Of a stretch of DNA of 50,242 bases, positions 30,048-45,136 are shown one piece after another. The DNA is taken from the NCBI GenBank assembly GCA_016290135.1, contig JAEESW010000014.1, forward strand, positions 1 to 50,242. Direction: 5' to 3'. Every line of letters begins with the position of its first letter. Positions within the stretch are counted from its first letter, which is position 1. The position numbers and the translations under genes are program-made. The stretch is from a bacterium. GTDB taxonomy: Bacteria > UBP6 > UBA1177. The notes under the pieces were generated by a model, which did not search any database, had not been told where the DNA came from, and saw only the letters and a program-made list of their open reading frames with translations.

Positions 30048-31460
30048 TTATTCTTCCTCACTTTCCCTTTCTTCAGCCGCAGGTTTAGGCTGTTCAGATT
30101 CACCTTCTTCCTGACTTTCACGCGCCTTTTTGGCAGCTTCCATCTCTTCGCGGACTTTGCGGATCTCGTTCATGGCCGCTTCCTGAGCCTCTTTGATCCT
30201 GGCTTCTTCCTCCCTCCTGCTGCGTTCTTCCTGTTCTCTGCGCTCGCGCTCCTCTTTTTCGCGCTGCTCACGCTCTTCACGCATCTTTTCCTCGCGCTCT
30301 TTTGCAGCTTCTTCCTTCTGTTTGAGCTCCTCTTCCTTACGTTTGAGTTCGTCTTCCTTTTTCTTCAGATCGTCATTCTGTGACGCATTTCCCGCTGCCG
30401 GAGCCGGAGGCATAGGTTTCGGAACAGCTTCTCTCTGCGGCAGACGGTCTCCCCTCTGCTGACGCTGCGGTCTTGCCGAGGGCTTTTTCTGCTGGCGCTG
30501 CTCGGATCTCTGTTCATGTTCCTTTTTCTGCGTTCTGGACATCTGCGGCTTGTTCAAAAAGCCTTTAAGGGAAAATTCGAATGTGTTTTCCGCTTCGCCT
30601 TTGTATTGCGAAAGCTGGCTGACAAGCAGGTTGAGAGCAACATTTTCAGAAATCTTCGCCATATCAGGGACCTTCGCAGTCACTTCAAGATCGAGCCTCG
30701 AAGAGGAGAAATTCCTCGTATTCAAAGTGATCTTTCCGACTGCTTCAAGCTCAACAATCCCTTTTATCGAAAGGCGTTTTATCTCGGCTTTACTGTCAAC
30801 GATCTCAGTCTCGAGTCCGACATCTCCAAGTATTATCTTGCCGACATCGAAATCTCCCATCGGAGTGGGCACTTTTCCGCGCAGGACGACATCTGTGCCG
30901 CTCAATTCCGCTTTTCCGTTATACTTCCCCTCTTTTGAACAAAGATCTCCAGCGCCGCTCAGTGTGCCTGTAAGCAGAACTTCTCCGAGCAAAGGCTTGA
31001 AGAGTGAAAGAGGGACTTCCGAGGCATCAAGCGAATAACAGGGATTCTCACTGGTATCAAAAGAAGCATCAAGTCCACCGCCCTGCGAGTTTATATCCTC
31101 GATATGGAGTTTTCCCGCAGGATGTCCGCCCAAAGTCGCAAATATCGACGGCGAGAACGAAAGTTCGGAAAAAGTGAGGACTTTGCTCCCCTTCTGCAGA
31201 AGCGTCCCTTCTTCGAACGAAACATTGCCCAGAAGCGATACATCGACATCTTCCGAGAGCAGGGCAAGATCCTTTATAAAAAGCTGCTCATTGATCTTGG
31301 ATATAATGAAATCATCCGGAAAAAATATCTCGATCCCGAGCCACAGTCCGATAAGAACTGCAACATCCACGAACAGCACTATCTTGACCGCCGCCTGAAC
31401 TTTTCCCGGGACCGGCAGATTCCTGATCCTGTCGAGCAGTTTGCGAAGTTTATTCTCCAT
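30048..31460 (-). CDS. gspN: type II secretion system protein GspN with charged coiled-coil extension
   Basis: In this 470-residue protein an N-terminal membrane anchor (about 24-46) is followed by a periplasmic beta-rich domain (about 50-310). That domain has the GspN-type layout of repeated strands, as in VDVSLLGNVSFEEGTL and MGDFDVGKIILGDV. From about 315 the sequence changes to a Gln/Arg/Pro-rich linker and then about 110 residues of almost continuous Lys/Glu/Arg/Gln heptads, a predicted long helix. Such an extension is not part of GspN proteins I know. It overlaps gspM by 11 bases with GGAG 7 bases before the ATG. Confidence 0.82.
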   Translation of the reverse strand: MENKLRKLLDRIRNLPVPGKVQAAVKIVLFVDVAVLIGLWLGIEIFFPDDFIISKINEQLFIKDLALLSEDVDVSLLGNVSFEEGTLLQKGSKVLTFSELSFSPSIFATLGGHPAGKLHIEDINSQGGGLDASFDTSENPCYSLDASEVPLSLFKPLLGEVLLTGTLSGAGDLCSKEGKYNGKAELSGTDVVLRGKVPTPMGDFDVGKIILGDVGLETEIVDSKAEIKRLSIKGIVELEAVGKITLNTRNFSSSRLDLEVTAKVPDMAKISENVALNLLVSQLSQYKGEAENTFEFSLKGFLNKPQMSRTQKKEHEQRSEQRQQKKPSARPQRQQRGDRLPQREAVPKPMPPAPAAGNASQNDDLKKKEDELKRKEEELKQKEEAAKEREEKMREEREQREKEERERREQEERSRREEEARIKEAQEAAMNEIRKVREEMEAAKKARESQEEGESEQPKPAAEERESEEE

Positions 31461-31995
31461 TCGCAGTCTCCTTCTTCATTGCCGCAACAACAAGGGAAAC
31501 ATCATAATTCTGCTTGTTGAAACGCTTTTTGATGGTTATCGAGTCAACAAAGACATAACGCCCTTTGTTCTCAAGTCCGTAGAGGAAAGTCAAAGTCTGG
31601 TCGAGCGGCACTTCGCGGAGGCTGAGCTCGACTCTCTCGATGTTGATATCGCCTTTTTTACGCGGTTTTATCTCTTTTATCGAACTTATCGGGATACCCA
31701 CGCTCTCCTTAACGGCCGAGATGTCCGAATTGAGGTTCACGCTGCTCGAATCTATGCCGTCCTGCATCTTCGTAGCCTGAGCCTGGGCCTTTTTGAACTG
31801 CTCCTTTTTGGAGACCATCTCCTGGATCATCTTTTCCTGTTCTACGATCGTATCCTTGCGGTCGTTGATCGCGGAACTCATAAAAAACCAGACTGTGACA
31901 AAGACAAATATCATAACGAAAGTCAGAAACGCAACGAGGACAGTGCGCTCGCGTTCGCTGAAATTGCTTATCGCCTCTATCAGTTTTTCTTTCAT
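31450..31995 (-). CDS. gspM: type II secretion system protein GspM
   Basis: This 181-residue protein has a short cytoplasmic start, the family's SERERTVLVAFLTFVMIFVFV membrane helix (about 13-38), a coiled coil (DRKDTIVEQEKMIQEMVSKK) and a ferredoxin-like periplasmic domain. GspM binds GspL in the inner-membrane platform. The start abuts the gspL stop (TAAATG) with GGAGAG just upstream. Confidence 0.88.
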   Translation of the reverse strand: MKEKLIEAISNFSERERTVLVAFLTFVMIFVFVTVWFFMSSAINDRKDTIVEQEKMIQEMVSKKEQFKKAQAQATKMQDGIDSSSVNLNSDISAVKESVGIPISSIKEIKPRKKGDINIERVELSLREVPLDQTLTFLYGLENKGRYVFVDSITIKKRFNKQNYDVSLVVAAMKKETANGE

Positions 31996-33483
31996 TTATC
32001 TCTCCTGATCGTTGTTCTCTTTTCCTTTTTTCTTCCCTTTCTTAGCCTTTGGATCCTCTTTTTTGGGAGCCGCATAGCTGAATGAAATATTGAAAGAGCT
32101 CTTGTCGCCCCTTGTGTTTATCTGCCCTCTGTTGATCTCGTCGATCATTTGATCGTTTTCAAGAAGTTCAGTGAATTTGTTGATGTCGTCCAGCGTGTTG
32201 CTCGTGCCTACGACCCTGATCTTCCCTTCCTCCTTTATCGAGATCTCAGAAACTTCGATAGTGCTCCCCTCGAAGGTGAAATAGGGAAAAATGACCTCCA
32301 TTATGTAGAGCGCGCTGTATGGATAGACCGATTTTTTGTCAGCAATGTTCGCTTCGCCCTTTATCGACTTGTCCATGATCGACAAAGCCTGGCGCAGAGA
32401 GGGCATCTCCTTGCCGATGACCTCTTTCATCAGCGTTTTCGTTCTCTCCTCGCCGGCCGCTATCCTTTCATCGAGATACTTTATCCTCGCTTCCATGCCG
32501 GCAATAAGCAGGACGATCGCCGTCAGATAAAGCAGCACCGCTATTATCGCCCTCTTTTTCAGGAAAGCGAAACCTCCTTTGTATGCAAAATCGCCTGTCG
32601 CGAAATTCACCGTGCTGTCATTGTCAACAGATTCGGAGATCATCTCAAGCTGCATCGCGAAATCGTAAACTATGAACGATGAATCCGAAAAGAGAGATGG
32701 ATCCATGCCGCGGACTATCTTGTCAGCCCCTTCAGGAAGCACTCCGCCGATAAAAACAGCCGTCTCTCCCGCATCTCCGGCAAAAGGAGCAAAAAATTCA
32801 AAGATCTTCTCGAAGAAAGAGATCACCGTCTTACGCATCCTCACTTCGATATCACTGAGTTCGCCCGGTTCGCTGAGATCGCCGGCGACACTGAGCCATG
32901 AATCAAGCTCAGCCTGAGGATCTTCGCCGCCGAAAATGGCGAGCATATCGCTTCTAAGCTCGTTCAGTCCGCCGTTCCTGACGATCTGTCCGTCGGCAAA
33001 AACCATGAGCGAATAGTCATCGTTTACGAAGATCGCCTTTTTCAGCGGAGTATCCGACTTGAAGAAGAGCGTCTCCTCCGGGACGATGCTCCTCACTTTC
33101 TCGCGGGCAGCATCATCAAAGTCCAAAAGAGCTTTGCGGACGACATCCTTCTCCACTGCAAAGACATTCATATCGCCGCTGCCCTTCTGAAAGTTTTTGA
33201 CTTCGATCATCATATTCTCCTCTTTGAACGGAGTCTCTGATTCGATATCCTGCGCGACGATCTTCTTAAGATAGGAGTGCTTTACCGGAGGATAGTTTCT
33301 CGCATAGTAGAGCATCTCCCTGCCAGAGCAGACAAAATCTATGTAGTCAAAACTTTTGAAAAGTTCGGCGGCTGCACTTTTTTCGACGAATTCACTCTTT
33401 TCGAAGGTAGTTTTATTGTATTCCTTCGAGAAAGTATCTATCAAAAATCCGCCGTTTGCCGCTCTGCATGAAGCAAATTTCAT
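31996..33483 (-). CDS. gspL: type II secretion system protein GspL (PilM/N-like)
   Basis: This 495-residue protein has a cytoplasmic actin-like domain (1 to about 310; IVAQDIESETPFKEENMMIE is the PilM/GspL-type segment), one membrane helix (AIIAVLLYLTAIVLLIAGM) and a periplasmic coiled coil plus ferredoxin-like domain. GspL recruits the ATPase GspE to the membrane. The end is Lys-rich (PKAKKGKKKGKE). AGAGGT lies 5 bases before the ATG. Confidence 0.88.
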   Translation of the reverse strand: MKFASCRAANGGFLIDTFSKEYNKTTFEKSEFVEKSAAAELFKSFDYIDFVCSGREMLYYARNYPPVKHSYLKKIVAQDIESETPFKEENMMIEVKNFQKGSGDMNVFAVEKDVVRKALLDFDDAAREKVRSIVPEETLFFKSDTPLKKAIFVNDDYSLMVFADGQIVRNGGLNELRSDMLAIFGGEDPQAELDSWLSVAGDLSEPGELSDIEVRMRKTVISFFEKIFEFFAPFAGDAGETAVFIGGVLPEGADKIVRGMDPSLFSDSSFIVYDFAMQLEMISESVDNDSTVNFATGDFAYKGGFAFLKKRAIIAVLLYLTAIVLLIAGMEARIKYLDERIAAGEERTKTLMKEVIGKEMPSLRQALSIMDKSIKGEANIADKKSVYPYSALYIMEVIFPYFTFEGSTIEVSEISIKEEGKIRVVGTSNTLDDINKFTELLENDQMIDEINRGQINTRGDKSSFNISFSYAAPKKEDPKAKKGKKKGKENNDQER

Positions 33484-33499: not shown

Positions 33500-34735
33500 T
33501 TATCCTTCTCTGTAGTAATAAATGTTGCCTTCGCGGTCGACGATCATCTCGACCCAGCTTTCGATCCCTTCCTTTATTCCGACAGCCTTGATGCGGTAGA
33601 CGCTTCCTGTAGTATCGGCGACTTCGGAGACCGACTTGTCAAGATTGACACCTTCATCGGCGCATGCCTTTACAAAATCGTCAAGTTTGTTAAAGCCGTA
33701 CTGCGCCCTTTTCGCGAGGATCTTTCCCAGAAGCTCGCGCATAGCGTCTTCGTTGTAGAAAACCGTAAGTGCCTTGTCCACGGCATAGGCTCTTATCAAG
33801 CCTTCGAGCATATCGTGGTTGGCCTTGTTCACATTGATCTTTCCGGTCGAATAGATCGTGATGTGCGGTTCAAGGATCTTGAAAACGAGATCGTCTACGC
33901 CGTAGACCATCATCAGTTCCTGCACTGTGTCGAATTTAGCATTCTTCACCTTGTATTCAGGCTCAAAATCATCATAGTTCGACTGCTCGTCGCCTCCTGT
34001 CATATACTTTGCGCCGTCGGTATACTTGTCATCGCCCATATCGACCCAGTCAACGATGTTCTGAATAAGCTCCTCTCTGTCGACATATTCCCTTCTTGAA
34101 GTGTTCTCAAGAAAAATGAAGTCGTAGAACTCAGGTTCTATCAACGCCTCAAGCATTTTGATGATCGCACCTTTCGTGCCGTAGGCGAGCTGGTTAAGGT
34201 TGATCTTGGTATCTTCCCCTTTGAACTCCACTTTGAAATCACCGGGGAACTGAAATATCGGGTCGCCGGTCTCAGTATAAGTGTGTTCGCCCTCCTCATC
34301 GTTCGTCGCTGCTCCGGCAGGCTTGTCTGTATCGGTCTTCGTTACGACATCTTCGATATCGACAAACGGACCGGCATCGGTGAAAGTGCGCAAAAGCGCC
34401 GTATCCATCGGGATTATGTCCCAGATCTCTATCTGATTCGAGAGGTTGAACTGCTTGAGGAGCCCTTCGACCTGTTTCTGGAGATCAAAAATGACGACTG
34501 CGAAGTTGACCGCGCTCGAAGCGAGAGCCTGGGCTTCAGCCTTGTGCTTGTAGTTCATCGCAAGGTCGAACTCTGTCTTTGCTTCATAGTTCATGTCGCT
34601 GACAATAGGAAGCATCACAGCTATCATCACAAGGACAAGAACAAGGGCAAACCCGCGCTTTTTACCTCCACGACCGGTTCCGCACCGTTTTTCCGAGCGG
34701 AGGCTTGACTTTATTTTGTCCAATAGATTCAACAT
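33500..34735 (-). CDS. gspK: type II secretion system minor pseudopilin GspK
   Basis: This 411-residue protein has a long basic leader (about 28 residues) ending in KKRG before FALVLVLVMIAVM, so peptidase cleavage is expected at G^F. The Glu normally at position +5 of pseudopilins is absent, which is characteristic of GspK, the pilus tip. The large alpha domain contains DLAMNYKHKAEAQALASSA and a helix-hairpin-helix-like INVNKANHDMLEGLI. It starts 1 base after the gspJ stop. The ribosome site is weak. Confidence 0.9.
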   Translation of the reverse strand: MLNLLDKIKSSLRSEKRCGTGRGGKKRGFALVLVLVMIAVMLPIVSDMNYEAKTEFDLAMNYKHKAEAQALASSAVNFAVVIFDLQKQVEGLLKQFNLSNQIEIWDIIPMDTALLRTFTDAGPFVDIEDVVTKTDTDKPAGAATNDEEGEHTYTETGDPIFQFPGDFKVEFKGEDTKINLNQLAYGTKGAIIKMLEALIEPEFYDFIFLENTSRREYVDREELIQNIVDWVDMGDDKYTDGAKYMTGGDEQSNYDDFEPEYKVKNAKFDTVQELMMVYGVDDLVFKILEPHITIYSTGKINVNKANHDMLEGLIRAYAVDKALTVFYNEDAMRELLGKILAKRAQYGFNKLDDFVKACADEGVNLDKSVSEVADTTGSVYRIKAVGIKEGIESWVEMIVDREGNIYYYREG

Positions 34736-34736
34736 C

Positions 34737-35390
34737 TTAAAAACTAAAAGGTTTAGTCATCTTAAGGTTTACAACAGTCTCTATCAGGTAATCTTCCTCG
34801 CCGAATGCGCCCTCTTTGGCTATCATGGTTATCTTTACTTTCGGCGGAAGAGAATTCACATTGTCGAGACTTTCGCTATTCCAGTGGTCGACCCACTCTT
34901 TTGTCGTCGTGTGCCAATACTCGAACTTGATGCTTTTGAACCCTTTCAGAACGGGGTAGACGTTGCCTCCGCGCTCGGGATCCTGATCGACCCAAAGGCT
35001 TTCCCTGCGCATGAGGACATTCTCTCCGTCGATGTTCTCTCCGTAGTATTCGATCTCAGTCTGGTCGCACTGTTTCATGCCGGCAGCCATTTTCACATGG
35101 TTTATCGCGGCAAAAGTCAGGTGGCTTACCGGATCGTCGTCCTCGCTCTTGAAAATGGTCTTGTGCGTCTCTTCCGGCGCACCTTTGTTGACGGTAAGAT
35201 AAGCGTTTTTCAGATCACTGCGGATGAGTTCAAGAGTAAAATATATGCCGCGCTCCCTCTCAGTCACAGCCTTTATTTTGGCTCTGCCGCTCAGGAGGTT
35301 CGAAAACGAGAAATAGACCGATGTGACAAGTATCGCCGTAATGCTCATCGCAAGCAGCACTTCTATGAGAGTAAAGCCTTTTCTCATCAT
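34737..35390 (-). CDS. gspJ: type II secretion system minor pseudopilin GspJ
   Basis: This 217-residue protein has a prepilin leader MMRKG^FTLIEVLLAMSITAI with Glu at +5. The rest is beta-rich, containing ELIRSDLKNAYL and ESLWVDQDPERGG, as in GspJ of the GspI-J-K tip complex. AAGGTG lies before the first ATG, inside the gspI end (4-base overlap). Confidence 0.9.
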   Translation of the reverse strand: MMRKGFTLIEVLLAMSITAILVTSVYFSFSNLLSGRAKIKAVTERERGIYFTLELIRSDLKNAYLTVNKGAPEETHKTIFKSEDDDPVSHLTFAAINHVKMAAGMKQCDQTEIEYYGENIDGENVLMRRESLWVDQDPERGGNVYPVLKGFKSIKFEYWHTTTKEWVDHWNSESLDNVNSLPPKVKITMIAKEGAFGEEDYLIETVVNLKMTKPFSF

Positions 35391-36043
35391 TTCACCTTGA
35401 CGGCGCCGCCGTTAAGCATATTGCCGGGCTGCTGCGGAGATCCGCCTTTGTTCAGCCCTTCGAACCTGTTTTTCGGAGCATCTCCGCCTTTGCCCTTGCC
35501 GCCTTTTCCGTTGTTGCCGCTGTTGCCGCCGGTATACTGCTGGAACGTCTTCACAGTGCCGTCGGTCGTGAGGAACACGGTGAACACCACTTTCTCAGAC
35601 TCTTTCACACCTTCACCCCAAAAGACCGAAACAGTGAGTTTGCGGATCCTTTCCTTGAAAAAATCCTCGATATTCCCTTTTGCCAGAGAGAGCATCGATG
35701 CGCTTTGGTCGAGATAGGAACCGTCGTCGGCACCTGTCGAGAAATCAGGAAGCGGTATAAAGACACGCTTTACCGAGTATTTCCAGCGGAAACCTTCATA
35801 CTCTCTCTCCTCGAAATCGCCCTCTTCCTCGGTCTCGTCGTCAGGCAGGCCGTCCTCTCTGATTATCTCTTCGACATCGTGGAGCTTAAGGCGGCAGAGT
35901 TCCGTTCCGAGATAGATGTTGTGCACCTTTGAAGCATAGATGTAACTTGCCGATATTATTCTGGAGGCCGCAAAAAGGACACCTGAGAGGATAGTTATCG
36001 CCGCAAGGACTTCGATGAGCGAAAAACCTTTGGAAAATCTCAT
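35387..36043 (-). CDS. gspI: type II secretion system minor pseudopilin GspI
   Basis: This 218-residue protein has a prepilin leader RFSKG^FSLIEVLAAITILSG. It is longer than usual GspI (about 120) because of an acidic insert (EEEGDFEEREYEGF) and a C-terminal Gly/Asn/Lys-rich tail (GGNSGNNGKGGKGKGGD). ATG at 36043 and GTG at 36046 are both possible; the GTG has the better-spaced GAGGG. It is coupled to gspH. Confidence 0.88.
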   Translation of the reverse strand: MRFSKGFSLIEVLAAITILSGVLFAASRIISASYIYASKVHNIYLGTELCRLKLHDVEEIIREDGLPDDETEEEGDFEEREYEGFRWKYSVKRVFIPLPDFSTGADDGSYLDQSASMLSLAKGNIEDFFKERIRKLTVSVFWGEGVKESEKVVFTVFLTTDGTVKTFQQYTGGNSGNNGKGGKGKGGDAPKNRFEGLNKGGSPQQPGNMLNGGAVKVK

Positions 36044-36867
36044 CACGACTTTCCCTCCGCATCCTCATCTTTCAGAAGATCCTTCATATCTTCGATCTCG
36101 TCTTCAAAGCTGCCGGATCCGATCTTCACATTGAGGAACATATCCGATGTGATGTAAACGAAACTCTCCTCTCCGTCAGCTGTCTCCTCGCCGATAGAAA
36201 GATAAAAAGGTTCGATCCTTCCCTCCGGAAAAATGTAGATGAAGACTTTAGGCTCCTTTCCCTTGTTGTCTGAGTCAAGGAAGTCGTTCCTCTTCACTAC
36301 TTCAGGAGTGTGATAGGCAAAAAATCCGGTCACGATCAGGTTCTTCGAGAATTTCTTCTCGGCTGAATTTTTCGTGAACTGCGGTTTCAGGATCTCTTTC
36401 AAAGAGCGTCTTTCGGGAATAAAATTTTCATAGTTGTAGTAATCCGAATTTTCCAGGTCTTCCTCGGAAGAGAGGAGTTTCGCTTTCTGCAGAAGCGTTT
36501 CGGCATCGAGCGCCATACCCTTACCGGCAAAAGGATCGCTCGTTGTCCCGCTTTCCATCCTTTCAATGAGTTTTTCATTCTCCTCTTCCTTCGCAGCGGC
36601 AGCCTCACCAGTGAAAAGATAGAACTGTGTCTCGCTTTTCTCTGTCCAGTAAGAGCCTTTTTCCATGTCGATGACAAGGCGGACATATTCTTTGTTGCGC
36701 ACCGCCTGCATGAAGCTGTAACGCAGGAAGGAGTTGAAACCGCCCATGTCCGCGCTTGCCTGATAACGTCCGAAACGGTTCACACCCGCAACGGAAAAGC
36801 CGGCGACGACGATCGCTATCGCCGCGACAGCAAGCATTTCGACCATGGAAAATCCGGATCTTTTCAT
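36043..36867 (-). CDS. gspH: type II secretion system pseudopilin GspH
   Basis: This 274-residue protein begins MKRSG^FSMVEMLAVAAIAIV, a pseudopilin leader with Glu at +5. FLRYSFMQAVRNKEYVRLVIDMEKGSYW follows, the helix-to-sheet transition typical of GspH/FimT. It is about 100 residues longer than usual, with an inserted charged helical segment (about 90-150). It starts 2 bases after gspG. Confidence 0.85.
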   Translation of the reverse strand: MKRSGFSMVEMLAVAAIAIVVAGFSVAGVNRFGRYQASADMGGFNSFLRYSFMQAVRNKEYVRLVIDMEKGSYWTEKSETQFYLFTGEAAAAKEEENEKLIERMESGTTSDPFAGKGMALDAETLLQKAKLLSSEEDLENSDYYNYENFIPERRSLKEILKPQFTKNSAEKKFSKNLIVTGFFAYHTPEVVKRNDFLDSDNKGKEPKVFIYIFPEGRIEPFYLSIGEETADGEESFVYITSDMFLNVKIGSGSFEDEIEDMKDLLKDEDAEGKS

Positions 36868-36869
36868 AG

Positions 36870-37301
36870 TTATTCGTCTTCCCAGTTCGTTATATCGTCG
36901 TTCCCGCCCTCTTTGCCGTCTGGTCCGAAAGAGTAAAGGTCAAAGCCGTCTTCATTGTTTGAGCCGGGATAAATGTAGACATATTCGTTTCCCCACGGAT
37001 CCTGCGGCACTTTCTTCTCTTTGAGGATCTTTTCTTCGACAAGTCTCGAAAGGCCGTCGTCACTGTCAGGATAGCGTCCGAACTCAGTTTTATAAAGATC
37101 AAGAGCATTTGAGATCGTGCCGATGTCTATCTTCGCCTGTTTTATCTTCGATTTGTCGAGATAGCCCATGACACCGACGCCGACCGCGCCCATGATCATC
37201 GTCATGATCGTGATGGTTACCATGATCTCAAGAAGCGAAAAGCCTTTTGAAGCCTCTTTTGCATTTGCTTTGATCAAAGCCTTAACAAAATTTCTGAACA
37301 T
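36870..37301 (-). CDS. gspG: type II secretion system major pseudopilin GspG
   Basis: This 143-residue protein has a leader ending KEASKG^FSLLEIMVTITIMT with Glu at +5. The GspG core follows: KSKIKQAKIDIGTISNALDLYK, FGRYPDSDDGLSRL, and the calcium-site end DPWGNEYVYIYPGSN...FSFGPDGKEGG type sequence. It is the main subunit of the pseudopilus. GGAGG lies 5 bases before the ATG. Unlike its neighbours it has a 149-base gap upstream holding a sigma-54 promoter and activator sites. Confidence 0.95.
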   Translation of the reverse strand: MFRNFVKALIKANAKEASKGFSLLEIMVTITIMTMIMGAVGVGVMGYLDKSKIKQAKIDIGTISNALDLYKTEFGRYPDSDDGLSRLVEEKILKEKKVPQDPWGNEYVYIYPGSNNEDGFDLYSFGPDGKEGGNDDITNWEDE

Positions 37302-37348: not shown

Positions 37349-37364
37349 GCAACTCGAGTGCCAC
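37349..37364 (-). promoter_or_regulatory. sigma-54 (-24/-12) promoter of gspGHIJKLMN
   Basis: On the minus strand GTGGCAC-TCGAG-TTGC has GG and GC exactly 10 bases apart (37362-37361 and 37350-37349), the invariant sigma-54 spacing. The start point would be near 37337, giving a leader of about 36 bases before gspG. The matching promoter before gspC is at 43977-43992. Confidence 0.8.
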
Positions 37365-37408
37365 AAAATTTCATTAGTTATTTCAAGATATTACGAGAGC
37401 AAAAGAAA

Positions 37409-37437
37409 TGCCAATTCGGCAATTTGACAATTTGTCA
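37409..37437 (-). promoter_or_regulatory. tandem 13-bp palindromes, putative enhancer-binding-protein sites upstream of gspG
   Basis: TGCCAATTCGGCA (37409-37421) and TGACAATTTGTCA (37425-37437) are imperfect-centre palindromes 3 bases apart. They fit one pattern, TG[AC]C-N5-G[GT]CA. The pair starts 45 bp from the outer end of the sigma-54 element, exactly as upstream of gspC. Confidence 0.75.
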
Positions 37438-37450
37438 AAGAGTCTTTTCC

Positions 37451-38680
37451 CTAACCGACTGCATCGTTGAGCTGGAGTATCGGCATGACGACAGAGAAAA
37501 CGATGAATCCGATAACGCCGGCAAGAGCGACGATCATCATAGGCTCGAGCATCGAAGTGAGTTTTTCCATCGTATACGTGACTTCCTTTTCGTAGGATGC
37601 CGCAAGAGTTTCAAGCATCTCCTCGAGTTCGCCGCTCTGTTCGCCTATCGCGATCATCTGAATGACGATGGGCGGAAATTCGCCGCTTCTCTTGAGCGGG
37701 ACAGCGATGGATTCACCCTCTTTGATGTTTTCGCGGGCAACTCCGACCGCATTTTCAAGGATCTTGTTGTCAATGATCTTTTTGACAATATCGAGTGCGC
37801 TGAGTATCGGAACACCCGAGTGCAGAAGCGTCGAAAGAGTCTGAGCAAAACGGCTGATCGCGACCTGCCTGTTGACTCTGCCTAAAATCGGAGCGTTGAT
37901 CTTGACCCTGCTCCACCAGAGCTCGCCCTTCGGGGTCTTGATGTATTTGTTGAATGCGACGACTCCTCCGAAGATCATTATCGCTATCAGCCACCACCAG
38001 CTTCCGATAAAACCGGAGAGCCACAGAAGGATCTTCGTTTGTATCGGCAGAGACATCTTTACATCTTCGAACATTTTGGAAAGCTTCGGGATTACGACCG
38101 TGAAAAGGACGCCGACGACTAAAACAGCTACGATCATAAGCACCATCGGGTAAGTCATAGCGCTCTTGACTTTGTTTTTGAGGTCGACCTGAGATTCCAT
38201 GAAGCCGGCAAGCCTCATCAGAACTTTGTCCGTCGCGCCCGACTCCTCTCCGGCAGCGATCATGTTACAGAACAAGTCATCAAAAATATTAGGAAATTCC
38301 CTTGCACTTTTACTAAAACTGTAACCTTCGTTCATCTTACCCTTGATGATGATGAGAGCATCTTTCATTATCGGGTTTTCCTGCTGCTGAGCCACTGCGT
38401 CGATCGCCTCGACAAGAGGGATCTTCGCTTTCTGCAGCGTTGCAAGAAGACGTGTCATCGAAGCGACTTCGTCAAGCGGCACCTTCTTCGCGCCGAAAGA
38501 AAAGATCTTGCGGAGAAAATCAAAACTGAAGCCCTGGGCCTGCGACTTTTCACTTATTTCGGTGATATAGTAGCCTTCAGAAAGGAATTTCGTCTTGACC
38601 GCCGCTCTGTTGGGACTTTCGATCGTTCCCTTCTTCTCTTTGCCGTTTGCATCGATTATTTTGTAGGCAAAAAGCGGCAT
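37451..38680 (-). CDS. gspF: type II secretion system inner-membrane protein GspF
   Basis: This 409-residue protein has an N-terminal PLFAYKIIDANGKEKKGTIE followed by two repeated cytoplasmic domains, each with the family motif (AAGEESGATDKVLMRLA and AIGEQSGELEEMLETLA), and three membrane helices. GspF is the platform protein that couples GspE to pseudopilus growth. GGAGG lies 7 bases before the ATG. The ATG shares a base with the gspE stop. Confidence 0.96.
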   Translation of the reverse strand: MPLFAYKIIDANGKEKKGTIESPNRAAVKTKFLSEGYYITEISEKSQAQGFSFDFLRKIFSFGAKKVPLDEVASMTRLLATLQKAKIPLVEAIDAVAQQQENPIMKDALIIIKGKMNEGYSFSKSAREFPNIFDDLFCNMIAAGEESGATDKVLMRLAGFMESQVDLKNKVKSAMTYPMVLMIVAVLVVGVLFTVVIPKLSKMFEDVKMSLPIQTKILLWLSGFIGSWWWLIAIMIFGGVVAFNKYIKTPKGELWWSRVKINAPILGRVNRQVAISRFAQTLSTLLHSGVPILSALDIVKKIIDNKILENAVGVARENIKEGESIAVPLKRSGEFPPIVIQMIAIGEQSGELEEMLETLAASYEKEVTYTMEKLTSMLEPMMIVALAGVIGFIVFSVVMPILQLNDAVG

Positions 38681-40374
38681 TACTTATCCTCCTGCGTTCT
38701 GAGAAGGACTTCTTCGGGCGATGTTATTCCTTTTATCGCCTTGAGAGCTCCGTCTTCACGGAGGTTGAGCATTCCGTTTGCCGCCGCTATCCTGCGGATA
38801 TCGCTTGCATCCTTGCGCGCTACGACAGCCCTTCTGAGATCCTCGTCTATCATAAGAAGTTCGAAAATACCGCTTCTTCCTTTATATCCCGAATATCCGC
38901 ATTCGGGGCAGCCCACCGCTTTGTAGAACGGATGATTCGCATATTCTTTCGGGTCAAGTCCAAGTTCTTCAAGGATAGCTGCCGGCGGGAAATAGGCCTC
39001 CTTGCATGCCGGGCAGAGCTTCCTGACAAGCCTCTGCGCGAGGACACCGACAACAGTCGACGAGATAAGGAAAGGTTCGATCCCCATATCGATAAGTCGT
39101 GTGAACGCCGTCGGAGCATCGTTCGTGTGGAGGGTCGAAAAAACAAGGTGACCGGTAAGAGACGCGTTGATCGCAATGTCCGCCGTTTCCTTGTCACGGA
39201 TCTCACCGACCATGATGATGTCGGGGTCCTGGCGGAGGATCGAACGGAGACCGCTCGCGAAAGTAAGTCCTATCTTCGAATTGATGTGGATCTGATTGAC
39301 ACCTTTGATCTGATACTCGACCGGGTCTTCGACCGTGATTATCTTGACATCGGGCGAATTTATCTCGGTCAGCGCCGAATAAAGCGTCGTAGTTTTACCG
39401 CTTCCGGTAGGTCCTGTGACGAGGAAGATACCGTGTTTCATGTGGATTATCTTTCTCATCGTCTCAAGATCGCGCTTGGTGAAACCGCTCTCGTCAAGAG
39501 AGAGTTTCTGCGAACGTTTATCCAAAATACGGAGGACTATCGATTCGCCGTGGACGCTCGGAAGGGTCGAAACACGGAAGTCTATGTCGTTCCCGGCGAT
39601 CTTGACCTTGATGTTACCGTCCTGCGGAAGTCTTTTTTCCGAAATGTTGAGGCGGCTCATGATCTTGATCCTTGTGATGAGACCTGCCTGAGCTGCCTTC
39701 GGAACGCGCTGGACGATAGAAAGCTTGCCGTCCTTTCTGAAGCGGACGATAACTTCGTCTTCATAAGATTCAAAGTGAATATCGCTGGCCTTTTCCTTTA
39801 CCGCCTTTGCGATCGTGTTGTTCACGAATTTGATGATAGGCGCATCATCGTTGGAGTCGATGAGGTCAGGGATAGTGTCGTCTTCGTCCGCCATTTTGCC
39901 GAACTCCTCGGCATTGAGCGACTCTTCTTTGTTGTCGACACTGCTGTAGGCCTGGTTTATCATGTCGTTGATCTTCTCGGGCGAAACAAGAAGCGAGACT
40001 ACATTTTTACGGAAGATCATAAAAAGCTGATTGAAAAGAAGCATATCTATGTCGGTGACGACGACATGGAGATCATTGTCGGCATAAAGAGGCAGAGCCT
40101 TGAATTTTTTAGCCAGGGCTATCGGAAATTCGCCAAGGACCGCAGGATCGAGCTTCTTGAGATCCTCTTCCGTCACCATCTTTATCCCGCTCTGCTCTGA
40201 AAAAGCCTCGGTCACCTGCGCGGGAGAGACCTTTCCCTCAGAAACAAGGAACTGCCCGATTTTGCCGGTCCCCTGCCGGTCGGCATGCTGCGCCGCGAGC
40301 GCCTCCGAAAGCTGCTCCTCGTCGACATATCCTTTTTCAACGAGGATCTCACCTATTTTGCGCTTTGCTGCCAT
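38680..40374 (-). CDS. gspE: type II secretion system ATPase GspE
   Basis: This 564-residue protein has an N-terminal GspE/PilB domain (KIGEILVEKGYVDEEQLSEAL), Walker A GPTGSGKTT (about 320), Asp box, Walker B DIIMVGEIRD, His box, and a zinc-binding four-cysteine element CPAC...CPEC (about 455-490). It powers pseudopilus assembly from the cytoplasm. ATG at 40374 was chosen over TTG at 40380 because GAGGA then has a 6-base spacing. It abuts the gspD stop. Confidence 0.96.
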   Translation of the reverse strand: MAAKRKIGEILVEKGYVDEEQLSEALAAQHADRQGTGKIGQFLVSEGKVSPAQVTEAFSEQSGIKMVTEEDLKKLDPAVLGEFPIALAKKFKALPLYADNDLHVVVTDIDMLLFNQLFMIFRKNVVSLLVSPEKINDMINQAYSSVDNKEESLNAEEFGKMADEDDTIPDLIDSNDDAPIIKFVNNTIAKAVKEKASDIHFESYEDEVIVRFRKDGKLSIVQRVPKAAQAGLITRIKIMSRLNISEKRLPQDGNIKVKIAGNDIDFRVSTLPSVHGESIVLRILDKRSQKLSLDESGFTKRDLETMRKIIHMKHGIFLVTGPTGSGKTTTLYSALTEINSPDVKIITVEDPVEYQIKGVNQIHINSKIGLTFASGLRSILRQDPDIIMVGEIRDKETADIAINASLTGHLVFSTLHTNDAPTAFTRLIDMGIEPFLISSTVVGVLAQRLVRKLCPACKEAYFPPAAILEELGLDPKEYANHPFYKAVGCPECGYSGYKGRSGIFELLMIDEDLRRAVVARKDASDIRRIAAANGMLNLREDGALKAIKGITSPEEVLLRTQEDK

Positions 40375-40376
40375 GG

Positions 40377-42959
40377 TCAATCCTCTTCGTCGTCAAGTTC
40401 CGGAACAAGTTCGTCTTCCGCGTCTTTCTTCGGTCTGTTTTTATTTTCACCGTCGTTTTCTATGATCTTTTCCTCTCCGCCGGGAGTGACCATGATCGAA
40501 TTTTCCTTCTTGTTGGCAGCTTCGATCCTTTTCAGTTCCTCTTTCTCAAAAGCCTGCTGATGACCGACGGCGTTGACGACCGAAAGAAGGGGTCCGCGCC
40601 TTTTGTCGAGGTATACCGTCTCTTCGAATTTGGTGTCGCCGCCGTAATACTTCCTCGCGAATTCATCACGCTCCTCCATTTTCTTGCGGAGGATACGCTC
40701 GAAATCCTCTTTGCTGTCAACGACGTGCGGAGTGAGGATGAGCAGCAGGTTCACTTTGGCCTTGTTCACTTTCTTATATTTGAAAAGGTTTCCGATGACA
40801 GGTATGTCGCCCAGGATCGGAATTTTGTTTTCGCCTTCGGTAACTGTATCCTTCATAAGTCCGCCGATGACTATCGTCTGCTCGTTTTCGGCATTGATCT
40901 TGGTCTTTGCCTGTCTTTTCGTCGTTTTGTAACCGTAATCGGTCTGCGCGCCGAGCTCAGTCATTTCCTGGTTGATCTCAAGCGTCATGTAGCCTGACTC
41001 GTTGATCTGCGGTTTAATTTTGAGTTTAAGCGCGACATCTTCACGGGTGTAGGTTATCGTGCTTCCTGTCGTGCTCGTCAGGATGTTTCCCGACGGGAAC
41101 GGAACTGTTTCACCGACTGTGATCTCGGCTTCTTCGTTGTCCGTCGTGAGAAGATGCGGAGTCGAAACTACGTTTACAGTGGAATCGTTCTGCGCCGCGT
41201 TCAGAATGAGTCCGATCGAAGGAACGCCGTCAACAAGCGAAAGACCGGGCATTCCGGCTGTTCCGTCAACCGAGGCGCCTACCATTCCGGCAACGAGTCC
41301 GGGAGTCGGTGAAGATAGAGCCTTTCCGAAGAAAAGAGGAACTTTCTCGCCTGCGACCGTTACTTCATAACCCATCGCGCTGTATGCGTTGCCGTATTCA
41401 AGGTTGTTGTCGATACTTACTTCGAGGATCGCAGCTTCGACAAAGACCTGTTTTCTCTTGACATCAAGTTTCTCGACGACTTTTTTGAGGTTCCTGAAAT
41501 CCTGAAGCGAAGAAACGACTACAAGAGAGTTGGTCGATTCGTTGGCAGATATCTGGACATCACCTTCGAAGACATCGGTCCCTTTGTTCCCTGTCTTTGA
41601 AGATCCTGAAGCCTTTTTGTTTTTCGACAGTGAATTCAAAGTCTTGAGCATGTCCTCTGCTTTCGCGTTCTGAAGCTTTACGACATGGATCTCGCCTTCG
41701 CCCTCTACTTCGCGGTCGATATTCTGGACTACCTGAAGGATCAGATTGTAGGTCGCCTTGTTGCAGAGAACGATTATCTGCTGACTTCTTTCATCTGCAA
41801 CGATGTGGATATAAGTCTCGCTCAGGCCTTCGCTGTCGTCCTGACCCCATGACGGATGAAACGGAGGACGGGGAGGAAATTTGCCGCCGTTCGCCTCGCC
41901 CTGTTTACCGACACCGCCAAGAGAAGGCGTATTGTCGTTGTTTTTTCCTTTTTTGTTCCCCTTTTTGGAGAAATCCTTAAAAATATCCTCTATGATCTTG
42001 CGCGCATCCGCTGCAAGGACGTGGTTGAGCTTGATAAAATAGAGTTCGGCCTTGTCGGACTCGGAAGGCTGGTCAAGCTCCTTTACCAGCATCATGATCT
42101 TCCTGATGTTGGCTGCGTAATCGACAACGATCAAAGTCTTGTCGTCGAAGACCACCGAAGTCGCGCCTTTGTCCCTGAAAAGTTTCAGCACTTTGTCTAT
42201 ATCGGTCGCTGTGACATACTCGAATTTCATGATAGTCGCGACCATTTTGAAAAGATCCGGGACATTGGCGCCCTTATAAAAAGGGATCTTCATCTCGGGG
42301 ATGTTTTTTTCTTTCGTGATTATCGTGTAGGAACCGTCTTCCGAAACGCTGAAATCGTTGACCGCAAGAAGCGTGAGGAACGTTTTGTAGGCTTCAGCGA
42401 CAGTGACCTTCTGCGGAGAGAGGAGGTTGATCTTTGCTTTGCCCAGATTTTCGGGGATTATGAAGTTTTTCTGCAGCAGATCGGAAAAGAGTTTAACGAC
42501 GTTCATAAGCTCTTCGTCCTTGAAATCGAGCCTGATCTTGAGATTCATATTGGCTGCTTTAGGCTCGTTTATCTCGACTTTCACAGCGTCAAGAAGCTTG
42601 TTTTCGTCAGGAGTCTTAGGCTGTTCCTTGTCAAGGATATTCTTCGGCTGCGGAGGAGTCACAGTCCTGACTTCATTGTTGTTTTTCTTGGGCTGCGCCG
42701 CATTTTCCGCCGGTTTTGCCTCATCCTCCTTTTTATCGCCGTTTTCTTCATCCTTGTTCTCAAGATCGACATTCCTCGGTTTGGGATTGTTGAATTTCTT
42801 CAGATTCGGATTCATCGGCCTGACTTTGTTGAACTTATTATTGTTGATATTGATCGGAACTTTAATGTTTTCAGCTCCGTCTCCCTCTTCCGGGTAAACA
42901 TTCGTGAACGAAAAAGCAATCAGAGCCGCCAGAAAAATCATCTTTTTCAGATCCAGCAT
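40377..42959 (-). CDS. gspD: type II secretion system secretin GspD
   Basis: This 860-residue protein has a signal peptide (to about 23) and an Asn/Lys/Pro/Glu-rich low-complexity region (about 25-135) that is not usual in GspD. The N0 domain (LKIRLDFKDEELMNVVKLFS), N1-N3 domains with a Gly/Pro/Asn-rich insert (about 345-385), and the secretin barrel (about 540-760; LLTTDNEEAEITVGETVPF, then TLEINQEMTELG) follow. An acidic tail ends the protein. It forms the outer-membrane channel. No lipobox was seen. GGAGG lies 5 bases before the ATG. Confidence 0.96.
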   Translation of the reverse strand: MLDLKKMIFLAALIAFSFTNVYPEEGDGAENIKVPININNNKFNKVRPMNPNLKKFNNPKPRNVDLENKDEENGDKKEDEAKPAENAAQPKKNNNEVRTVTPPQPKNILDKEQPKTPDENKLLDAVKVEINEPKAANMNLKIRLDFKDEELMNVVKLFSDLLQKNFIIPENLGKAKINLLSPQKVTVAEAYKTFLTLLAVNDFSVSEDGSYTIITKEKNIPEMKIPFYKGANVPDLFKMVATIMKFEYVTATDIDKVLKLFRDKGATSVVFDDKTLIVVDYAANIRKIMMLVKELDQPSESDKAELYFIKLNHVLAADARKIIEDIFKDFSKKGNKKGKNNDNTPSLGGVGKQGEANGGKFPPRPPFHPSWGQDDSEGLSETYIHIVADERSQQIIVLCNKATYNLILQVVQNIDREVEGEGEIHVVKLQNAKAEDMLKTLNSLSKNKKASGSSKTGNKGTDVFEGDVQISANESTNSLVVVSSLQDFRNLKKVVEKLDVKRKQVFVEAAILEVSIDNNLEYGNAYSAMGYEVTVAGEKVPLFFGKALSSPTPGLVAGMVGASVDGTAGMPGLSLVDGVPSIGLILNAAQNDSTVNVVSTPHLLTTDNEEAEITVGETVPFPSGNILTSTTGSTITYTREDVALKLKIKPQINESGYMTLEINQEMTELGAQTDYGYKTTKRQAKTKINAENEQTIVIGGLMKDTVTEGENKIPILGDIPVIGNLFKYKKVNKAKVNLLLILTPHVVDSKEDFERILRKKMEERDEFARKYYGGDTKFEETVYLDKRRGPLLSVVNAVGHQQAFEKEELKRIEAANKKENSIMVTPGGEEKIIENDGENKNRPKKDAEDELVPELDDEED

Positions 42960-42968
42960 TTATGCCTC

Positions 42969-43940
42969 CTACTCTATTGTATATTCTAAAGTTTCATTCT
43001 GCCCTTTTCTGACGATGTCGAGCGAAAGCTTGGACGCACTCTGGAGCCTCGAATAAGCCTCGAGTGCCTTGTCGGGACTTGAAAGCTCGATACCGTTTAT
43101 CGATTTCAGGACATCGCCGTTCTGGATCCCTATCTTGGTGTAAAGACTGTCTTTCGCGATAGAGAAGATCTTGAACCCGTTGTCTTTCGCCGACGGGACT
43201 ATCCTCGCCTGAGACGCGAGCGCGCCGAGGTTTCCCGTCGCTTTGTTGAGGTCTGCGCGTTTGACGACATACTGGTTCGGACCGACATTCCTGATATCAA
43301 AATCATCATCACCTTTCGGCTGCGGCTGAGTCTCTCCAGCCATTTTCGGTGCTTCGGGGACAGGCATCTGTTTAGCCTCTCCGACACCGTCGCCGATGCA
43401 TTTAACACCGCTCGTCGTTCTGAAGATCGCGATGTTCCTCCAGACAAAAGCAAGGATCACGCCGTCCTGCACTTCGGCCCCGGTCCTTGTCACAGCGCCT
43501 CCGTTTCCTTTGCCTTTGAGGATGGCGAACGAAAAGTCGTTGTCCTTCGCGACTATCGTTCCGGTAAGTTCGTAACCCGGCAGAAGAGCACATTTGTCAG
43601 GATTTTCAAGATAAAAGAATATATCTTCCTTGCTCATTTCGGGAACTTCCTTACTCTCTTCAACACTATCCGTCGTCTGCTGATCAGTGAGAGCGATGAG
43701 GCGCGACGAGGAATCAAAAATATTAGCGGAAGTCATATTGTTGGGATTTTTGCCGAAATAAAAACTCTCCTTTTTTTCTTCGCTTGTATTTCCTTCAAGT
43801 GTTTTATAGTAATTTTTTCCGACCGGAACATAGACCTGTTCACCTTTGACGACGAAAGCGAGCAAGAATCCGACGAAAGAAAGTACCGCCGCCGCTATCG
43901 CGATAAACAAAGCTATGTTCAAAACAGTTCTGCTTTTCAA
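42969..43940 (-). CDS. gspC: type II secretion system protein GspC
   Basis: This protein of about 323 residues has one membrane helix (about 8-32), the HR region that contacts the secretin (ELTGTIVAKDNDFSFAILKGK) and a C-terminal PDZ domain (about 245-323; YTKIGIQNGDVLKSINGIELSS). GspC links the inner platform to GspD. The start is taken as TTG at 43940 with GAGG 6 bases upstream. The longer frame beginning at 43985 would start inside the sigma-54 promoter, upstream of the transcription start. First gene of the secretion cluster. Confidence 0.88.
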   Translation of the reverse strand: MKSRTVLNIALFIAIAAAVLSFVGFLLAFVVKGEQVYVPVGKNYYKTLEGNTSEEKKESFYFGKNPNNMTSANIFDSSSRLIALTDQQTTDSVEESKEVPEMSKEDIFFYLENPDKCALLPGYELTGTIVAKDNDFSFAILKGKGNGGAVTRTGAEVQDGVILAFVWRNIAIFRTTSGVKCIGDGVGEAKQMPVPEAPKMAGETQPQPKGDDDFDIRNVGPNQYVVKRADLNKATGNLGALASQARIVPSAKDNGFKIFSIAKDSLYTKIGIQNGDVLKSINGIELSSPDKALEAYSRLQSASKLSLDIVRKGQNETLEYTIE

Positions 43941-43976
43941 AGCACACCTCGCAAAAAACAAAGACCGCTTATTTAA

Positions 43977-43992
43977 GCAACTCAAGTGCCAA
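43977..43992 (-). promoter_or_regulatory. sigma-54 (-24/-12) promoter of gspCDEF
   Basis: On the minus strand TTGGCAC-TTGAG-TTGC matches the sigma-54 consensus almost perfectly, with GG and GC 10 bases apart (43990-43989 and 43978-43977). Transcription would start near 43965, about 25 bases before the TTG start of gspC. Confidence 0.85.
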
Positions 43993-44036
43993 AAAAATTT
44001 TTCAATAAAATTAACATGTTACACCATCAGTCAAAA

Positions 44037-44065
44037 TGCCAATTCGGCAATTTGACATTTTGTCA
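44037..44065 (-). promoter_or_regulatory. tandem 13-bp palindromes, putative enhancer-binding-protein sites upstream of gspC
   Basis: TGCCAATTCGGCA (44037-44049) and TGACATTTTGTCA (44053-44065) lie 3 bases apart and 45 bp from the outer end of the sigma-54 element. The first is identical to, and the second one base different from, the sites before gspG. Confidence 0.75.
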
Positions 44066-44206: not shown

Positions 44207-45136
44207 ATGTGGGTCCAGGGAATAGTTTTGATAGTTTCCCTTTTGGTTTTGGCATGGAGCGCAGATAAATTCGTTGACGGATCGTGCGGACTGGCACACT
44301 GTCTGGGGATTTCACCGTTTTTGATCGGGATGATCATTGTCGGATTCGGCACATCGGCCCCTGAAATGCTCGTTTCGGCAGTATCGGCGTTTGAAGGAAG
44401 CCCCGACATCGCGCTCGGCAACGCATACGGCTCGAACATCACGAACGTTCTTTTGATTCTCGGAGTCGCAGCGATCGTAAACCCGATAAAGGTCGATTTT
44501 TCGGTCGTAAAAAAAGAGCTTCCGTTCCTTGCCGGAACGATAGTCCTCACCGTTTTTCTTGTTCTTGACGGCTTCATCTCGCGCATCAACGCGATTTCCA
44601 TGCTCATCATTTTCATCCCAATAATGGTGATTTCCTCTCTCGGCAAAAAAGAGGAAGAGAACAAAGAAGAAACCGACAGAAAAGAGTCTCTGCTCAAATC
44701 AATATGCCTGATAATCCTCGGTCTGGCGCTTCTCGTCAGCAGTTCGCGCGCTCTCGTCTGGGCTGCAAAAGACATTGCGACAGCCCTCGGGATCAGCGAA
44801 CTCATCATCGGTCTCACGATAGTCGCGCTCGGGACTTCGCTTCCGGAACTCGCGGCTTCGGTATCGGCCGCAAGGAAGAACGAGCACGGTGTCGCATTCG
44901 GGAACGTTGTAGGCTCGAACCTTTTCAACACGATGTGCGTTGTCGGCATCGCCGGAACAATCACGCCCATAGCCGTTGATCCGAAGATACTTACGAGAGA
45001 TCTTCCGGCAGTCGCATTAGTGACCTTGTTCCTCTTCATTTTCGGCATCAGGAAAAAAATCAGCCGCGCTTCAGGCGTCTTTCTCGTAGCGCTTTATATC
45101 GTCTACACGATCCTTTTGGGATTGAAAGTCATTTAA
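44207..45136 (+). CDS. CaCA-family calcium/sodium antiporter (YrbG-like)
   Basis: This 309-residue membrane protein has about ten helices and the two inverted alpha-repeats of the Ca2+/cation antiporter family. Repeat 1 has GFGTSAPEMLVSAVSA and GNAYGSNITN; repeat 2 has ALGTSLPELAASVSAA and GNVVGSNLFN. The Pro-Glu pairs of both repeats, which bind the cations, are intact. It exchanges Na+ or H+ for Ca2+ across the inner membrane. The start at 44207 has GAGGT 4 bases upstream; a longer frame from 44036 would run through the promoters. Confidence 0.93.
   Translation: MWVQGIVLIVSLLVLAWSADKFVDGSCGLAHCLGISPFLIGMIIVGFGTSAPEMLVSAVSAFEGSPDIALGNAYGSNITNVLLILGVAAIVNPIKVDFSVVKKELPFLAGTIVLTVFLVLDGFISRINAISMLIIFIPIMVISSLGKKEEENKEETDRKESLLKSICLIILGLALLVSSSRALVWAAKDIATALGISELIIGLTIVALGTSLPELAASVSAARKNEHGVAFGNVVGSNLFNTMCVVGIAGTITPIAVDPKILTRDLPAVALVTLFLFIFGIRKKISRASGVFLVALYIVYTILLGLKVI

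Follow-up and report, generated by a model that had tools for sequence, protein, structure and literature searches.

How are the two halves of a type II secretion system (T2SS) kept in step when each of them has a promoter of its own? The question is raised by contig JAEESW010000014.1 of a UBP6 bacterium (assembly GCA_016290135.1), here called the window and analysed over its whole length of 50,242 nucleotides, in which gsp genes run on the minus strand from gspC to a gspN-like gene. According to the original prediction, made from the window alone, gspC and gspG each lie behind a sigma-54 promoter and a pair of palindromic activator sites, and one enhancer-binding protein switches on gspCDEF and gspGHIJKLMN together. 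Judging from their geometry and conservation, these elements very probably serve as enhancers and promoters in a small regulon dependent on sigma-54 (RpoN). The same layout lies ahead of a third operon headed by asd, the gene for aspartate-semialdehyde dehydrogenase.

The source genome (G000) has 2.47 Mb in 66 contigs and is 98% complete, and the window is its entire contig C24. The comparison set comprised 61 genomes: 19 of the window's family (f1, G000-G018), of which 15 belong to the window's genus and G015, G016 and G017 to other genera, and 42 others, including G019 (family f2), five genomes of family f3 (G020-G024) and three of family f4 (G025, G026 and G027). For the comparison of promoters we used 43 distinct sequences (19 gspC, 15 asd and 9 gspG), leaving out two reverse-strand rows with a 47-bp spacer and the gspC promoter of G021.

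Promoters and upstream elements of gspC and gspG

The promoters are -24/-12 elements on the minus strand, at 43977-43991 for gspC (TGGCACTTGAGTTGC) and at 37349-37363 for gspG (TGGCACTCGAGTTGC). Both read TGGCAC-N5-TTGC with the GG-N10-GC spacing, and so conform to the sigma-54 consensus; a passage of a Geobacter sulfurreducens study gives TTGGCACGGTTTTTGCT as the consensus in that species (PMC2725144). The upstream activator elements (UASs), 29 bp long and on the same strand, occupy 44037-44065 at gspC (TGACAAAATGTCAAATTGCCGAATTGGCA) and 37409-37437 at gspG (TGACAAATTGTCAAATTGCCGAATTGGCA), and 45 bp separate UAS and promoter at both genes. Positions and spacer are as originally described, and so is the likeness of the two UASs, which have one 13-mer in common and differ by a single base in the other. 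The 5' ends predicted at 43965 and 37337 agree with these coordinates.

The 13-mer TGACAAATTGTCA is a perfect palindrome around its central base, and the other two 13-mers have one unpaired position each. Alternatively, the UAS can be read as four TGNC units at 8-bp steps, which holds in 38 of the 43 promoters; the N letters of the TGNC pairs are complementary in 24 of them for the first pair and in 16 for the second. Because the TGNCA unit is nearly self-complementary, two palindromes and four direct 8-bp repeats are indistinguishable. In its strict form (TGMC-N5-GKCA twice, 3 bp apart), the pair occurs twice in the source genome, both times at gsp, and its reversed control does not occur.

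The TTG listed as the gspC start, at 43985, falls within the promoter, and comparison with relatives assigns the start to the TTG at 43940. A divergent gene begins on the plus strand at 44207. A second promoter-like match, TGGCAT-N5-TTGCT at 37398-37413 (minus strand), overlaps the gspG UAS, probably by chance.

Conservation of the layout

We searched the comparison set for the composite layout (a UAS made of TGNC pairs, a spacer of about 45 bp and a -24/-12 element), with the reversed pattern as control. With zero mismatches there were 38 matches, all within the 19 f1 genomes and none in the 42 others. The frames downstream of these matches are gspC (17), gspG (11) and asd (10), and no other gene. 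Units with a 44-46-bp spacer precede gspC in 18/19 f1 genomes, gspG in 12 of the 15 genus genomes and asd in 17/19 f1 genomes, and the spacer keeps this length throughout the 43 promoters (range searched, 44-49 bp). A conserved upstream site is therefore common to these promoters at a fixed distance, as in an enhancer-binding-protein regulon. The predicted RpoN-type layout is matched by the presence of rpoN, found on contig C47 of the source genome (PF04552, 187.5 bits). Relatives that keep the gsp genes also keep the elements, apart from the single f1 genome without a gspC unit, G002 (59% complete and without a gspF match either), and the misses in G004, G005 and G010 weighed below.

At up to one mismatch, the pair motif is present in 19/19 f1 genomes, and the reversed control also matches in G001, G002, G003 and G015. 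At two to three mismatches there were 5 additional matches in f1 and 16 outside it, compared with 5 and 15 for the reversed control. Four of these 16 belong to gspC (G020 and G021) or asd (G021 and G023) of f3, and another lies in G024.

Two further targets in the source genome were rejected. An extra pair on contig C11 has no GG-N10-GC at 40-51 bp (matching strand; the other strand was judged by eye), and a 3-mismatch match on C41 reads by eye as coding sequence. At two Desulfobacterales gspD loci, a scan judged by eye found no TGNC pair ahead of a sigma-54-like site. Two other sigma-54-like promoters of the source genome (C9:13175 and C37:14695) have an upstream TGTAAA-N5-TTTACA palindrome (TGTAAAAATCTTTTACA and TGTAAAAATATTTTACA) and are followed by genes that we named by eye as an inositol-phosphate-synthase-like gene and an aminotransferase; perhaps they form a second enhancer-binding-protein regulon.

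The asd operon

The genome-wide search for the strict pair returned the gspC and gspG sites alone, and the composite search added asd, which lies on a contig other than the window. Since the layout also stands ahead of asd, the predicted regulon includes a third operon unlinked to gsp. A single asd match was found in each of 24 of the 28 genomes searched, and none in the three f4 genomes or in G028. Wherever the neighbouring gene is complete, asd overlaps or abuts a gene for a protein of about 630-700 amino acids. In the source genome (locus L071, 10103-11995) this protein appears as a fusion: it matches the CFI-box-CTERM family NF041770 (70.8 bits, cut-off 40) and the MXAN_2562 outer-membrane barrel family NF040596 (111 bits, cut-off 100), with a weak match to the MXAN_2561 family (44 bits, cut-off 150). 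MXAN_2561 and MXAN_2562 are separate NCBIfam families with consecutive Myxococcus locus numbers. The predicted fold, of low confidence (mean pLDDT 60, pTM 0.43), goes no further than to agree with two beta domains, one helical region and strands at the C terminus. Passages of PMC11980579 describe that the T2SS of Myxococcus xanthus sorts MYXO-CTERM proteins to the surface, and by analogy a link between the CFI-box/barrel protein and the T2SS is therefore plausible.

An IHF-like site in the spacer

The sequence between the elements had been described as unconserved. This holds on average: over 17 gspC sequences, mean information is 1.64 bits in the UAS and 1.63 bits in the promoter, and falls to 1.01 bits in the spacer. 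It does not hold for one block, which resembles a site for integration host factor (IHF). A passage on Geobacter RpoN promoters gives WATCAR-N4-TTR as the IHF consensus and places the IHF site between enhancer and promoter (PMC7962754). The reverse complement of this consensus, YAANNNNYTGATW, is matched with one mismatch at 44009-44021 in the gspC spacer (TAACATGTTAATT) and at 37381-37393 in the gspG spacer (TAATATCTTGAAA), both on the minus strand.

At up to one mismatch, YAANNNNYTGATW occurs in 39 of the 43 promoters (200 shuffles: mean 6.1, maximum 16), 14-16 bp from the UAS in 38 of these 39, and perfect matches occur in 17 (shuffles: mean 0.6, maximum 3), figures that overstate the significance because the promoters are related and the pattern had been noticed before the test. 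In the opposite orientation, the consensus is found in one of the 43 (shuffle mean 2.8). The agreement of the putative site across three operons is the stronger point. The source genome encodes three HU/IHF-family proteins, one of them distant; the IHF-alpha homologue scores just above its cut-off (111.2 vs 111) and the best IHF-beta match below (105 vs 115). With a predicted site between UAS and promoter and IHF-family genes in the genome, these promoters resemble the IHF-assisted type, and we infer that IHF or a relative binds there.

Origin of the gspG promoter

In G005 and G010 of the window's genus, in G015, G016 and G017 and in all five f3 genomes, gspG directly follows gspF without a promoter. 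The gspG promoter lies between gspF and gspG in the window and in G008. In the 10 remaining genomes of the genus that have a gspF locus, no gspG is found within 1494 bases past gspF (713 in G009). The junction search, run without G018, gave no result for G019; G002 has no gspF match, and the gspG motif searched for was not seen in the f4 genomes. The gspC and gspG units lie on separate long contigs in G006 and 41 kb apart on one contig in G007; G001 is fragmented.

Since gspG stands behind gspF without a promoter in other genera, the gspG promoter seems to have been acquired later. In UAS and promoter, gspG is closer to gspC than asd is: the gspG UAS is 0.90-0.97 identical to the gspC UAS (five genomes), compared with 0.66-0.72 for the asd UAS, or 0.79-0.83 when reversed (four genomes). 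This fits a duplication of the gspC unit without proving it. The simplest order of events suggested by these arrangements is that a promoter was gained at the gspF-gspG junction at the level of the genus, and that the operon was then split in most species. This would be a clear example of an operon that first acquired an internal regulatory unit and later broke up.

The layout beyond the family

The gspC unit of G019 (f2) matches except at one position, and its spacer is 46 bp long. In f3, the first TGNC 13-mer lies 74 bp from the -24 element at asd in four of the five genomes (G020, G021, G022 and G023), and at the same distance at gspC in G021, G022 and G023, three of the four f3 genomes for which this region was covered; asd of G024 has a sigma-54-like site and no full 13-mer. 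In the f4 genome G026, gspC has two TGNC pairs, the first of them 75 bp from a promoter. A sigma-54-type T2SS promoter with a shared activator site thus seems to be old here: three families that belong to one order have it, as does a single genome from another family of the phylum.

Candidate activators and proposed mechanism

A single activator for gspCDEF and gspG to gspN, as had been proposed, is the natural reading of the shared elements. The source genome encodes five PF00158 proteins, set apart from five weak AAA matches, and four of the five have AAA+, GAFTGA and helix-turn-helix (HTH) features. They are PilR, in the pil operon on C1; a GAF-type activator on C25; a response regulator on C39 whose gene precedes one for a histidine kinase; and an orphan NtrC-type response regulator (C64:143736-145097), of the kind that the original prediction had suggested looking for. 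The fifth, on C36 (17244-18686, minus strand), combines an FHA domain with the sigma-54-activation (AAA+) domain; similar scores in other genomes of the genus suggest that it is conserved there. We rejected it as the activator on the ground that it ends without an HTH. The GAF-type protein was also rejected: judged by frame length and score, it is not among the four activators of each of eight element-keeping genomes of the genus that are 96-99% complete (G003, G004, G006, G007, G009, G012, G013 and G014). A quick tree of 76 activator proteins included only G006 and G013 of these eight, each with three of its four activators. G001 (93% complete) keeps three units and has only two activators, which length and score assign to the PilR and C64 types. 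The tree placed 21 of the 25 f4 activators (6/9 in G025, 8/9 in G026 and 7/7 in G027), and the C39 type is not among these 21.

Any choice among these proteins is a guess from sequence. Ours falls on the C64 orphan regulator, at somewhat less than an even chance; PilR is a possible second, the kinase-linked regulator of C39 an unlikely third, and there is a slim chance that the activator is some other protein.

In the proposed mechanism, an NtrC-type enhancer-binding protein would occupy the TGNC array, some 85 bp ahead of the start site, while the DNA is bent at the spacer site by IHF or a relative; the activator would then open the RNA polymerase-sigma-54 complex at TGGCAC-N5-TTGC. The regulon would consist of gspCDEF, gspG to gspN and the unlinked operon of asd and the secreted CFI-box/outer-membrane-barrel protein. 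In other genera, gspG would be transcribed behind gspF from the gspC promoter, and in most of the window's genus from a second unit ahead of gspG, which in most species with that unit no longer adjoins gspF. We tentatively propose, as a possibility rather than a probability, that throughout this lineage the whole T2SS is made on demand at the command of a single NtrC-type regulator, the orphan being the likeliest, that this regulator also switches on asd and the fused barrel protein, the latter being a partner devoted to the system or one of its clients at the surface, and that the copied enhancer-IHF-promoter unit kept the two halves in step after gspG had left gspF.

Alternative explanations

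Several observations, besides the inflated shuffle figures, weigh against one sigma-54 regulon under the orphan regulator. Within the genus, the gspG unit was not found in G004, G005 and G010, and asd is present in G005 and G010 without the activator element or a sigma-54-like promoter; gspC of these two genomes retains both elements although asd has neither. Farther out, gspC of G020 keeps the promoter behind an array that has decayed to 3 mismatches and contains no full TGNC pair, and gspC of G025 and G027 has two TGNC pairs each and no promoter at the distance seen in G026. The C64-type counterparts in G025 and G026 join at an open fork with a support of 87, a weak placement, and none is present among the seven activators of G027 (82% complete). 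PilR-type proteins are found in all three f4 genomes, including G027, where a pilA-type promoter is preceded, at 152 and 202 bp, by two TGACAAAAATTGTCA pairs, relatives of the gsp activator site with a 10-bp step. TGNC pairs at steps other than 8 occur in 4 of 22 distinct pilA-type promoters, this one included. In addition, the -24/-12-like pattern by itself has 9 matches in the source genome and 5 in the control, which is near chance.

In one alternative, the sigma-54 regulon is real and its activator is PilS-PilR, with type IV pili and type II secretion under one system. PilR is conserved in f1-f3 (the PilR-type proteins of f4 are not joined to it by a supported fork). Its gene belongs to an operon that also contains pilB, a pilT-like gene, pilC and pilS, and in G004, G006 and G014 pilR lies about 12-14 kb from gspC. 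In G011, a pilA-type promoter has one pair similar to TGACAAAAATTGTCA upstream. For Pseudomonas aeruginosa, a passage of PMC6058289 counts GTCT elements among the hallmarks of PilR sites. PilR is nevertheless disfavoured because the 8-step TGNC pair is found in none of the 22 pilA-type promoters (33 overlapping rows), on the assumption that PilR drives pilA here; 18 of the 22 have no TGNC pair at any step from 6 to 13. We consider this explanation doubtful. In the source genome, two tandem pilA-like genes (C35:99663 and 100221) each have a TGGCAC-type promoter and no 8-step TGNC pair, and the second is followed by a leader, ttgttgtttgatagtcagacgacgtta, that is conserved in several genomes of the genus.

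The array might also belong to an unrelated regulator, such as a repressor or a nucleoid protein, with the true activator bound elsewhere or acting from solution. Some enhancer-binding proteins act without binding DNA, and the source genome does encode an FHA-type protein without an HTH. This is improbable: the array lies upstream of the -24/-12 element, not over it, and the fixed 44-46-bp spacing with an IHF-like site in between is the classical enhancer layout. Finally, the near-control number of isolated -24/-12 matches is what could be expected of AT-rich chance repeats, with transcription from sigma-70-type promoters. Since that pattern alone is not rare, the evidence lies in the composite and its conservation, and there chance is scarcely credible: the elements are conserved above the spacer, the strict pair has no match in the control, and all 38 exact layouts are confined to gspC, gspG and asd of f1.

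Type II secretion genes of the window

The gsp genes occupy the minus strand from 43940 down to about 30048, in the order C, D, E, F, G, H, I, J, K, L, M and gspN-like. Four of them score above curated cut-offs: gspC (42969-43940; NF041515 GspC_delta, 196 bits, cut-off 150), the secretin gene gspD (40377-42959; TIGR02517, 447 bits, cut-off 351), the major pseudopilin gene gspG (36870-37301; TIGR01710, 110 bits, cut-off 89) and gspM (31450-31995; PF04612, 33.6 bits, cut-off 27.8). The ATPase gene gspE (38680-40380; TIGR02533, 629 bits, cut-off 630) and gspF (37451-38680; TIGR02120, 421 bits, cut-off 424) fall just below. The matches of gspH to gspL are weaker. The gspH-like pseudopilin gene (36043-36867) was named from a weak TIGR01708 match and its position, the gspI-like pseudopilin gene (35387-36046) from a prepilin N-terminus (TIGR02532) and its position, and the gspL-like gene (31996-33483) from a weak PilN match (PF05137) below cut-off and its position; gspJ (34737-35390; TIGR01711, 2.9e-10) and gspK (33500-34735; NF037980, 5.4e-25) are below cut-off. 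The gspN-like gene (30048-31460) was named by position only, its Pfam search being without a match. By GspD, at 84-89% identity, the source genome has ten close named relatives, metagenome-assembled genomes whose titles mostly name the rumen or other ruminant gut; one is labelled Spirochaetales and two are labelled UBP6.

Comparison with known systems

The original prediction had set these promoters against T2SS operons under sigma-70-type or quorum control. This contrast was too strong, as passages of PMC9743648 and PMC12316311 hold RpoN-linked precedents. In Plesiomonas shigelloides, T2SS-2 is likewise under positive RpoN control, established by RNA-seq of a mutant and qRT-PCR, with the other T2SS unaffected (passages of PMC9743648, which give no promoter site), whereas the present case consists of cis-elements, three operons and conservation across families. 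In Myxococcia, T2SS groups are enriched in predicted sigma-54 regulons (PMC12316311), in another phylum and as group-level enrichment only; its passages on T2SS describe no shared activator site, and the word 'semialdehyde' is absent from its text. A T2SS cluster of Azoarcus is induced under nitrogen fixation, according to a passage of PMC3916325. Sigma-54 has been described as a controller of the bacterial exterior, with envelope-related targets as here, in PMC3162934, whose text mentions neither type II secretion nor general secretion nor gsp. Our searches of the open-licence literature yielded few direct sigma-54 T2SS promoters with a shared activator site and no publication on this regulon.

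The arrangement of the elements also has counterparts. The sites of M. xanthus NmpR are likewise paired and inverted around an N5 centre, ahead of sigma-54 promoters of several operons, but read GCGCA-N5-TGCGC instead of TGNC-N5-GNCA and serve a regulon of other content (passages of PMC11841059). The IHF-assisted RpoN promoters of Geobacter have their IHF site at the same position (passages of PMC7962754), which here is predicted from sequence. The present comparison names a co-regulated partner operon, with asd and a CFI-box/barrel protein matching Myxococcus-named families, and the geometry is exact enough for start sites to be predicted in uncultured gut bacteria. Sigma-54 control of T2SS thus has precedents, and the predicted regulon is canonical in mechanism and new in content and lineage.

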